Source of the DNA: Lentzea atacamensis
Lineage (GTDB): Bacteria > Actinomycetota > Actinomycetes > Mycobacteriales > Pseudonocardiaceae
Direction of reading: 5' to 3'
NCBI RefSeq assembly: GCF_003269295.1
Contig: NZ_QLTT01000004.1
Location: 620,001-684,000 of the forward strand
DNA length: 64,000 nt
In this document: positions 17,682 to 19,942 of the stretch, in pieces
Layout of the letters: each line of letters begins with the position of its first letter
How positions within the stretch are numbered: position 1 is the stretch's first letter
The notes under the pieces: model-generated
The model's database searches: none
Told to the model about the DNA's origin: nothing
Seen by the model: the letters and a program-made list of their open reading frames with translations, nothing else
Position numbers and translations under genes: made by a program

Positions 17682-17731
17682 CGCCCCCTTCGGTGGCGAC
17701 GCTAGCCCGCTGAACCTGAGAGTCCGGGTTC

Positions 17732-17826
17732 GGCGGCTTCGCCGACCCGGCACATGCCCTCCTTCGTCGGGCGTGTGCCGGACCGAATTTCTGTGGTCGG
17801 CTTTTGTTGGTGGTTGCGGGGCGTGG
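17732..17826 (+). repeat. Left 95-bp inverted repeat of the HNH element
   Basis: This segment is repeated in inverted orientation at 19585-19679. The outer 55 bp are identical, followed by one A/G change, another identical run (TTTCTGTGGTCGG), a divergent 9-13 nt patch and a final identical GTGGTTGCGGGGCGTGG. Each copy contains a 13-bp stem-loop (CCGGCACATGCCC ... GGGCGTGTGCCGG with one G-T pair). The arms face outward around the DUF222/HNH gene. Confidence 0.85.
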
Positions 17827-17982
17827 TCTGTTTGCTTTCTTTGTGTTTCGGTTGCGTAGATGGTTGCTAGTGGTTGCGTGGCGTCTAGAGAGAGTTTGTG
17901 CGCACGGTGCCATATGATGGTTGACCTGCTGGTTCACTCGATGGTGTAGTGCTCGTCCCCCTTTGTTGTCTTTGATCTCGAA

Positions 17983-17988
17983 TAGAAT
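17983..17988 (+). promoter_or_regulatory. -10 box TAGAAT of the HNH gene
   Basis: TAGAAT ends 7 nt before ATG 17996 with no RBS between, in an AT-richer pocket than the surroundings. Probable leaderless promoter located inside the inverted-repeat element. Confidence 0.45.
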
Positions 17989-17995
17989 TGTGGGC

Positions 17996-19129
17996 ATGGA
18001 AGCGGTCGAGGTTCTCGATGCTCTCGCCTATCACGAGAAACAAGTCGCCTATCATCAGGCGCAGGGATTGCGCATCCTCGCGGATTACGCCATCGCGTGC
18101 AAGGGCGAGGAATTCTTCGACGCCGAGATCGCGGCCGGGATGCGGTGGACCTCACGCTGGACCACCGACCAGATCACCCTGGCCCTGGACCTGGCCACCA
18201 AACTCCCGCGCACGCTGGACGCCCTGGAGAAGGGTGACATCGACCTCTACAAGGCCCGCGTCGTGCACGACAAGACCGTGCCGCTGTCGTCTGAGCTGGC
18301 GGCGGAGGCGGAGGAGCTGGTGCTGGCCAAGGCGGAGGGCAAGACCGGCGCGCAGCTGCGGCAGCTGACCAGCCGGGTGGTGATGCGCGTCGACCCCGAC
18401 GGCCACCAGGACCGGGCCGAGTTGCGCAAGGCGCAGCGGTGCACGGGGTTGTCGGTGACGCCGGAGGACGGCATGGCCCAGTTCTGGGCCTATCTCCCGG
18501 CCGCGCGGGCCACCGCGTGCTATGAGCGCGTGGACACCATCGCCCGCGGCCTGCAGACCCCGGCCGACCCGCGCACCCTCGACCAGATCCGCGCCGACGT
18601 GGTCGCGGACCTGCTGCTGGCCACCCCGGACAAGACCAGCGCGGTGAAGGTCGAGCTGTACGTGACCGTGTCGGCGGCGACGCTGCTGGGGTTGTCGGAG
18701 CAGCCGGGTGAGCTGGCCGGGTACGGCCCGATCAGCGCCGACCTGGCGCGGGAGCTGGCCGGTGACGCGACTTGGCGGCGGCTGCTCACCGACCCGACCA
18801 CGGGTGAGGCGCTGGAGTTCGGCACCAGCACCTACCGGCCACCGGCGAAGCTGCGCCGGTTCGTGTGGACGCGGGACCGCACCTGCCGGTTCCCCGGTTG
18901 TATGCGGCCCGCGTACAAGTCCGACCTCGACCACACGGTGCCGTTCCCGGAAGGGCCGACCTCGGAGGCCAACCTCGGCCCGTTCTGCCGCCACCACCAC
19001 CGCGTCAAGCACCGCACGGCCTGGGAAGTCAGCCAACCCGAACCCGGCAGGTTCTACTTCCGCAGCCCCGCCGGAAAGACCTACCAACGCGAACCGGAAC
19101 CGGTACTGGGCGACCCACCACCGTTCTAA
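17996..19129 (+). CDS. DUF222 / HNH endonuclease (13E12-repeat family)
   Basis: 377-aa protein. The N-terminal three quarters is the helical DUF222 region (VEVLDALAYHEKQVAYHQAQ to about residue 290). A C-terminal HNH nuclease follows: RDRTCRFPGCMRPAY, then the DHTVPFPEGP catalytic stretch (Asp-His) and NLGPFCRHHHRVKH. This is the architecture of the actinobacterial 13E12-repeat proteins, multi-copy genes often linked to phage integration sites or mobile loci. ATG 17996 is chosen over the upstream open frame because of the -10 box. The gene sits alone between 95-bp inverted repeats and is followed by a tandem-repeat tract. Confidence 0.9.
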   Translation: MEAVEVLDALAYHEKQVAYHQAQGLRILADYAIACKGEEFFDAEIAAGMRWTSRWTTDQITLALDLATKLPRTLDALEKGDIDLYKARVVHDKTVPLSSELAAEAEELVLAKAEGKTGAQLRQLTSRVVMRVDPDGHQDRAELRKAQRCTGLSVTPEDGMAQFWAYLPAARATACYERVDTIARGLQTPADPRTLDQIRADVVADLLLATPDKTSAVKVELYVTVSAATLLGLSEQPGELAGYGPISADLARELAGDATWRRLLTDPTTGEALEFGTSTYRPPAKLRRFVWTRDRTCRFPGCMRPAYKSDLDHTVPFPEGPTSEANLGPFCRHHHRVKHRTAWEVSQPEPGRFYFRSPAGKTYQREPEPVLGDPPPF

Positions 19130-19175
19130 CCCCCGCCCCACGAACGGGTTGCGATCCAAGGAAAATCCCTCGATC

Positions 19176-19560
19176 GCAACCCGGCCTTTGGCGACCGTCA
19201 ACGCAGCCGGCGTCCCACCGCATCGGCCTGGGTCGAACCCGCGTTTCTGGCGGCCGTCAACGCAACAGCGCTACCCGCATGGGTCTGGGTTGCAACCCGC
19301 CCTTGGGGACACCGGCGTAACCGGCGTTCCACCGCATCGGCCTGGGTCGAACCCGCCCCCTCTGGGCGCCCGCCAACGCAACCGGCTCCAGCCGCATCGG
19401 TCTGGGTCGCAACCGGCCCTTTTGGCGACTGCCCGCGCAACCGGCGGCCCAACCACATCGGCCTGGGGCGCAACCCGTCCTTTTGGTGGCCGCCAACGCG
19501 ACCGGCTCCACCCGCGTCGGTCTAGGGCGCAACCCGACCCCTGGCGACCACCTACGCAAC
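19176..19560 (+). repeat. Seven imperfect tandem repeats of 57-61 bp
   Basis: Units begin GCAACCCG or GAACCCG at 19176, 19235, 19292, 19349, 19409, 19470 and 19529 (last one partial). Consensus order within a unit: GCAACCCG, C/T-rich TTTTGGCGAC, CAACGCAACCGGC, CCGCATCGG, CTGGGTC. They lie between the HNH stop and the right inverted repeat and encode no sensible protein. Alternate units start GA or GC, suggesting a partial two-unit higher-order period. Confidence 0.85.
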
Positions 19561-19584
19561 TGCCGCCACCCGCACGCCACATGC

Positions 19585-19679
19585 CCACGCCCCGCAACCA
19601 CTTACGGAACCCGACCACAGAAACTCGGTCCGGCACACGCCCGACGAAGGAGGGCATGTGCCGGGTCGGCGAAGCCGCC
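19585..19679 (-). repeat. Right 95-bp inverted repeat of the HNH element
   Basis: Reverse complement of 17732-17826, same length and same internal stem-loop. Together the arms bound 1948 bp carrying one gene and a minisatellite. I see no obvious short target-site duplication directly outside the arms. Confidence 0.85.
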
Positions 19680-19708
19680 CAAACCGCGACCCGGGCCACC
19701 CGCCCTGC

Positions 19709-19810
19709 CCAACGCAATTCGCGCTACTCGCTCTGCCTAGCGCAGTCCGTGCCACCGGCCTGCGCTACTCGCTCTACCCCAACGCAACCCGTGCCACCGA
19801 TCCGCGCCAC
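19709..19810 (+). repeat. 41-bp period direct repeats right of the element
   Basis: GCGCTACTCGCTCT occurs at 19721-19734 and again at 19762-19775, each followed by a CGCA...CCGTGCCACCG stretch; degenerate copies continue to about 19810. The stretch 19680-19942 holds no gene I can support and is unusually rich in CCAACGC-type words like the tract inside the element. Confidence 0.55.
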
Positions 19811-19942
19811 CGCCCAACCCCAACGTCACCAACGCCACCGACCTGCGCCGCCCGCCAACTCCCGCCCGCCAACGCACGCACGCCAGCCCTCCACGTGCGC
19901 CCGCCACGTACGCCCACCCACGCCCCACTGGCGGCCCACCCG

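Follow-up and report, generated by a model that had tools for sequence, protein, structure and literature searches.

The multi-copy DUF222 family is already known from Mycobacterium, where DUF222/HNH coding sequences occur in several copies per genome as 13E12/REP13E12, reportedly described first by Gordon in 1999. Phage T4 is likewise familiar for single HNH genes, its free-standing mob homing genes, which occupy scattered intergenic positions. For M. tuberculosis, gene conversion among REP13E12 loci has been reported (PMC13061034), and the DIVE paper counts 'REP13E12/HNH endonuclease/DUF222' among repetitive elements (PMC10589994). Hairpins beside coding sequences have been described in REPtrons, where a REP and an inverted REP surround the coding sequence and tnpA_REP is in most cases single copy (PMC8266576), and in IscB/HEARO, presented as a compact, mobile-element-linked HNH nuclease by structured hairpins (PMC9755519).

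The locus studied here lies in a window of 64 kb, the whole stretch of Lentzea DNA that was analysed. It is like 13E12/REP13E12 in its DUF222/HNH coding sequence and its several copies per genome, and the hairpin-tipped inverted ends, unoccupied sites and deletion derivative found here for Lentzea are features that the mycobacterial copies may or may not share. With REPtrons and IS200/IS605 (TnpA_REP, HUH) it shares a gene bordered by palindromic hairpins; however, the Lentzea product is a DUF222/HNH protein in which Pfam finds no HUH Y1 transposase, its gene is multi-copy whereas tnpA_REP is mostly single copy, and unlike REP sequences the window-type hairpins stand beside DUF222 genes and are not dispersed alone. 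A compact HNH nuclease adjoining structured hairpins is also a feature of IscB/HEARO, from which the Lentzea units depart by their symmetric ends, by the lack of RuvC and of a match to the HEARO RNA (RF02033), and by an IscB model score far below cut-off. They resemble T4 mob genes in being single intergenic HNH genes and differ in their defined hairpin ends and chromosomal multiplication. A literature search, with most subscription journals outside its scope, returned no report of hairpin-ended DUF222 elements, and an earlier description is possible.

The window element spans 17725-19686 (1.96 kb), and its features are collected in Table 1. Its two ends form an inverted repeat of 102 nt that is 92% complementary, and the local-alignment score of the upstream against the reverse-complemented downstream side was 175, compared with a maximum of 44 in 200 first-order Markov pairs. 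Inverted repeats around one DUF222/HNH gene and a minisatellite had been noted at this place, and all of these parts are there, although the proposed arm length of 95 bp and limits of 17732-19679 were slightly short, and the supposed 13-bp internal stem-loop measured 11 bp, with an additional outer hairpin. Read from outside to inside, each arm consists of the mini-hairpin CGGC-TTC-GCCG with its 4-bp stem, ACCC, the 11-bp main hairpin (GGCACATGCCC/GGGCGTGTGCC, including one T.G pair, around the loop TCCTTCGTC) and a segment ending in GGTTGCGGGGCGTGG. GGTTGCG was observed three times on the left side (Markov mean 0.10, maximum 2 in 1000 sequences) and CGCAACC seven times on the right (mean 0.36, maximum 4 in 1000 sequences); as both counts lie above the Markov maxima, the subterminal parts are therefore inverted arrays too. 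The TAGAAT box, kept or nearly kept in the copies compared, fits a candidate leaderless promoter, and no second gene-like frame was apparent between the window arms. A TTCACTCGATGGTG-like (TTCAC) box was present upstream of 26 of 40 Lentzea copies versus 1 of 58 copies from other genera. Just outside the right arm, at 19687-19942, lies another CA-rich repeat strip with a period of about 41, which is shorter in genome G008 and differs from the sequence of G002 and G014, both of them without the element.

Table 1. Coordinates of the element's features, numbered from the first letter of the window.
Feature	Position	Strand	Basis or remark
Left arm (left end, LE), read outside to inside	17725..17826	+	Inverted repeat; copies in Lentzea
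Left-arm outer mini-hairpin CGGC-TTC-GCCG	17734..17744	+	CGCC-TTC-GGCG in other copies
Left-arm main hairpin, 11-bp stem, loop TCCTTCGTC, T.G pair	17749..17779	+	
Three subterminal GGTTGCG sites (17812, 17850, 17872)	17812..17878	+	Markov comparison
TTCACTCGATGGTG, candidate operator/protein-binding site in the arm-promoter interval	17933..17946	+	Sole match in the 64-kb window
TAGAAT, -10-like box, 7 nt before ATG	17983..17988	+	
DUF222/HNH gene, 377 aa (P0001)	17996..19129	+	Pfam DUF222; invariant HNH-region residues; ATG at 17996, stop ends at 19129
Minisatellite, period about 59/120, holds CGCAACC sites	19174..19560	.	
CGCAACC sites	19175, 19377, 19408, 19436, 19469, 19528; seventh at 19593 in right arm		
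Right arm (right end, RE)	19585..19686	-	Inverted repeat
Right-arm main hairpin	19632..19662	-	
Right-arm outer mini-hairpin	19667..19677	-	

The gene product, P0001, matched Pfam DUF222 with an E value of 2.5e-27. Pfam HNH was not called in P0001 itself; the protein has the invariant Cys/His residues of its relatives' HNH region, and HNH (PF01844) scored above cut-off in four of the five relatives scanned. Twelve columns were invariant in 37 proteins, including C297, C302, H313, C331 and H334 of the HNH region. Pfam analysis of P0001 and the five relatives revealed DUF222 and HNH only, with no known transposase domain of the DDE, HUH, Tyr or Ser type. A defence system was also considered and set aside, as a PADLOC search with four proteins gave no match. 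Four families of copies from single genomes, with 4, 8, 14 and 12 members, had median dN/dS values of 0.05, 0.34, 0.24 and 0.24, which places the related proteins under purifying selection, and the within-genome copies are mostly old (median dS 0.31–0.37).

The AlphaFold model of P0001 had a mean pLDDT of 85, reaching 96 over the N-terminal 147 residues. Foldseek found no match for the whole model at E <= 0.001 in PDB or BFVD. For the N-terminal part, the five best matches were ParB/Spo0J/Noc chains, with probabilities of 0.82–0.95 and E values of 0.34–0.78, none reaching E <= 0.001; Spo0J was also weakly matched by profile (E 0.069). ParB-type proteins bind palindromes, and a connection between this N-terminal likeness and the TTCAC box may serve as a lead, nothing firmer.

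Sixteen of 24 Lentzea genomes contain the 102-nt arm, and a 30-nt hairpin pattern gave 38 matches in 13 of the 24, its reversed control giving none. Forty-four arms were scored in the window and in 39 loci taken around arm matches and other own-genome DUF222 matches; for 40 of them the distance to a DUF222 ORF or fragment is at most 1 kb, and the remaining four comprise three at contig ends and one, in L072, where other DNA separates arm and gene. The arm is thus neither confined to this locus nor detached from DUF222 genes, the two outcomes that would have spoken against the original prediction, and a dispersed terminator or REP repeat unlinked to the gene is ruled out by the 40 arms. The intervening DNA in L072 (4079-5368) amounts to about 1.3 kb, with one frame that looks by eye like an IS110-type transposase.

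A gene stands between two arms at five loci (the window, L047, L048, L052 and L060, the second arm of L060 being partial). A search for copies with and without the gene had been suggested, and one without an intact gene was seen once: L056 retains both arms, separated by 241 nt, but between them only the promoter and the gene's first codons, and is an internal-deletion derivative. Only the 5' arm is present in nine copies from L. alba (G003) and L. kentuckyensis (G013), whose between-site homology stops at the stop codon, and only the 3' arm in two from L. aerocolonigenes (L046 and L049), which start at TTTCACTCGATCGTGA; two arms are therefore not required for a unit at several sites. In the 23 loci compared, flanks were alike beyond the element only at orthologous sites, and no second gene recurred with the arms. 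Another idea, that the evolution of the ends follows the genome and not the protein, was considered because G019 looked that way, and was dropped because the window-type arms did not: median arm identity was 0.822 within a genome between protein groups (n=13), 0.889 within genome and group (n=42), 0.835 between genomes within a group (n=333) and 0.824 between genomes and groups (n=347). A 174-nt remnant of the 5' part of the gene, 94% identical, was noticed in the window's own genome (L043:4009-4182, G000:C1). After the gene of L067 (below 2704), transposase-like sequence was seen by eye directly 3' of the stop, and it is missing in the counterpart L058.

A search for unoccupied sites had also been suggested, and such sites were found in relatives. 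Four insertion sites (window, L048, L060 and L064/L066) were scanned for arm and DUF222 gene, and most relatives had neither. At the window site the arm was present in 4 of 22 loci (G000, which is the window's genome, G008, G013 and G003); without the element, the flanks are 58 nt apart in G002 and 258 nt apart in G014, and in most other genomes the right-hand gene is not adjacent. All occupied junctions fall in the strip CTGAGAGT..TTTCAG, no more than about 20 bp from one another. Because the pair G000 and G008 is unlike the pair G013 and G003, two insertions or a later replacement must be assumed. At the L048 site (arm in 2 of 21 loci) the right flank alone was alignable, next to a terminator-like palindrome. 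At the L060 site (2 of 22 loci) the flanks are 9–298 nt apart without the element in 11 genomes, and about 1.1–1.4 kb apart without arm or DUF222 gene in eight others. At the L064/L066 site (2 of 6 loci), G011 lacks the element and has two apparently convergent genes that almost touch. Target duplications, which were to be looked for together with such sites, were not found by eye at these four sites or at the ends in G019, with flanks mostly too diverged for base-exact reading.

At least one DUF222 match was present in 23 of the 24 Lentzea genomes, with 23 in G001, 19 in G008, 18 in G019 and 15 in G003. Two families were fetched from G019, one of six loci (one of them cut by a contig end) and one of eight. 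The right end of these elements lies about 200 nt after the gene, and the left end about 235–275 nt before it at 11 of 13 readable ends, L139 and L146 being shorter. Both families largely use one common hairpin with differing proteins (58% identity to P0001 for L122, 23% for L141). Hairpin half-sites numbered 31 across the 24 genomes, all in G019, and 20 of them form 10 inverted pairs 1.44–1.55 kb apart. A site search from L124 matched G019 alone. Inverted repeats of 112–453 nt flank the gene at all 14 loci fetched from G001 (of 23 matches), and inverted repeats with a score above 44 were found at 9 of 12 loci in G008. In the window's own genome, contigs C8 and C15 (G000:C8:1-247 and G000:C15:1-170; L041 and L042) start at the same base, inside a 425-aa-type element, and are 97% alike over 146 nt; further near-identical copies have probably been collapsed in this assembly. 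Outside 19 of 25 G019 ends, an ORF of 60 codons or more stops no further than 45 nt away, versus 17% of 600 random points, and with a minimum of 100 codons the figures were 16 of 25 versus 10%. Judged by these frames, the G019 elements sit after gene ends, be it through target choice or through selection.

In 39 window-type arms (15 distinct cores), pairs 2 and 3 of the main stem change on both sides (GC to AT, CG to TA), and the mini-hairpin alternates between CGGC/GCCG and CGCC/GGCG from copy to copy. The G019 stems reach 27 bp, with two-sided changes at four inner pairs when both palindrome strands are counted. The hairpin stems covary, and in this comparative sense the ends are structures. 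The T.G pair at stem position 7 is kept in 37 of the 39 arms; one functional strand was argued from it and then abandoned, because some A.C mismatches also occur. An asymmetric CCCTT/CCCCTT bulge appeared in the predicted folds of 5 of 5 Lentzea ends of the 405-aa family, 3 of 3 in G056 and 3 of 4 in G089, and was absent from the predicted folds of three G030 ends. One hairpin of L142 (G019) has an inverted loop, CCTA versus TAGG. One end of L146, also in G019, carries a window-type hairpin with the loop TCCTTCGTC, so both hairpin types exist in one genome.

We consider the window element to be one copy of an insertion-sequence-like mobile element whose presumed mobilising enzyme is the DUF222/HNH protein, with a probability of about 58%. 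As in insertion sequences, there is a discrete unit with defined ends at several unrelated sites, and the sites are unoccupied in relatives. Sequence comparison establishes the hairpin ends in inverted orientation, the DUF222/HNH gene, the unrelated sites and the absence from most relatives, and it lends good support to the mobility of a unit with these ends; paired copies, one deletion derivative and unoccupied sites bear out the proposal that the hairpins are its termini. That the DUF222/HNH protein moves the unit is the simplest reading, because no other gene recurs with the arms, and we infer likewise that the unit is nuclease-driven, as originally suggested. Against this reading stand the one-arm copies, the age of most within-genome copies, the scarcity of inverted repeats and of the TTCAC box in other genera, and the weak N-terminal fold match; no target duplication or excision product was seen, and some of the similarity could be due to gene conversion among the copies.

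A possible course of events can be proposed. The protein's helical N-terminus, with its weak likeness to ParB/Noc, would recognise the subterminal GGTTGCG/CGCAACC repeats, the TTCACTCGATNGTG box or both, and cleavage by the C-terminal HNH domain would take place either at the tips of the hairpins or in a target close to a host gene's 3' end. Repair or replication would then paste a copy into the target with no evident duplication of it. In addition, transcription might be stopped by the hairpins in both directions, so that insertion after a stop codon might be harmless.

The strongest rival, which we nonetheless consider improbable, is a free-standing homing endonuclease gene: the HNH nuclease would cut the element-free intergenic allele and the gene would be copied in by homologous double-strand-break repair, with the hairpins as flanking or regulatory sequences and spread to new sites a rare event. 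HNH is a usual homing-nuclease fold, and the motif, the one-gene units and the boundaries, which coincide with the stop codon (G003/G013) or lie at or close to it (G030, G056 and G075), all agree with homing, as does the window site, where occupation of one intergenic strip in four genomes with junctions so close together suggests re-insertion. However, homing poorly explains why so many unrelated sites in a genome share their defined ends, a plain homing gene would not be expected to conserve hairpin tips and subterminal repeats, and no common target sequence was recognised by eye.

Rather less probable still is a unit moved in trans by another transposase, for example a hairpin-reading HUH/Y1 enzyme, with the DUF222 gene as cargo or helper. 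Such a passenger would fit the resemblance of the hairpin ends to REP/IS200-type ends, and the L056 derivative, in which both ends persist without an intact gene; yet the flanks of the 23 loci offer no recurring second gene as its mover, and the proteins are under purifying selection. That same selection, together with the old divergence, the position of the ends after gene ends and the gene conversion reported between M. tuberculosis REP13E12 loci (PMC13061034), could instead point to a gene family with a host role, its arms serving as bidirectional terminators or regulatory hairpins and its copies stemming from old duplication and gene conversion. We regard this as very unlikely, because the ends are sharp and their flanks unrelated, most relatives lack the element at the same sites, its presence is patchy (49 of 80 family genomes) and near-identical copies are collapsed in the window's genome. 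An RNA-guided nuclease of the HEARO/IscB type, with the arm as guide RNA, can practically be dismissed: the hairpins are structured and covary and the HNH part is weakly similar to IscB (one profile far below cut-off, another at E 0.012), but 14 loci gave no Rfam match at gathering (the window region just two unrelated ones far below it), six proteins scanned with Pfam had no RuvC domain, and the hairpins are symmetric ends rather than one 5' RNA with a variable guide.

Beyond Lentzea, PF02720 was found in 49 of the 80 family genomes at E <= 1e-8, with at least 24 matches in eight of them, and in one of the 14 named control genomes. Multi-copy units with sharp ends, several of them with large hairpins, are also formed by other DUF222 families of Lentzea and of its family at large (loci L348 and L349 of G029 were left out of the locus analyses). 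Inverted repeats were found at 8 of 12 loci in G089 and 1 of 10 in G075, at none of 18 in G030, 10 in G056 and 8 in G052, and, scoring above 39, the maximum for mismatched pairs, at 0 of 24 other-genus loci chosen for their similarity to P0001; such ends are thus only one of several architectures. Phage or plasmid carriage was rejected as an explanation, as a query from the 405-aa family matched 2 of 50,697 phage records and P0001 matched 11 of 72,556 plasmid records. A wider and more tentative proposal, which we put at somewhat short of even odds, is that DUF222/HNH genes form an unrecognised class of autonomous bacterial transposable elements, with an HNH nuclease that has a ParB-like DNA-binding part as their sole protein and with covarying hairpin ends or, in some lineages, a left hairpin and a stop-codon region at the right. 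If true, there would be a class of transposons that relies on an HNH enzyme, such an enzyme could join the known ways of moving DNA, and the 13E12 repeats of actinobacteria would be accounted for. The family is rich in DUF222/HNH genes, and Pfam still names the domain 'unknown function'; if they are read as mobile elements with hairpin ends, the domain acquires a role that can be tested, and the assembly breaks at such loci would be explained.

The stop-codon architecture differs in detail between genomes. The 18 loci of G030 (L290-L307), some of them cut by contig ends, have a left hairpin and a conserved part that ends shortly after CGCAACACCATGCAC; the last codons and the stop, at variable distance after CGCAACACCATGCAC, seem to be taken from host DNA, and several of the left flanks carry direct repeats GCGAGTTCCGCGCTGTGCA. 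Copies in G056 end at the stop codon, and in one G075 family the similarity extends 7 nt past it, with one pair of recent copies 98.8% alike. The coding parts of L330-L333, in G075 as well, are very similar, and their 5' regions differ (L330/L332 versus L331/L333); such a mosaic suggests that the left end has been exchanged.
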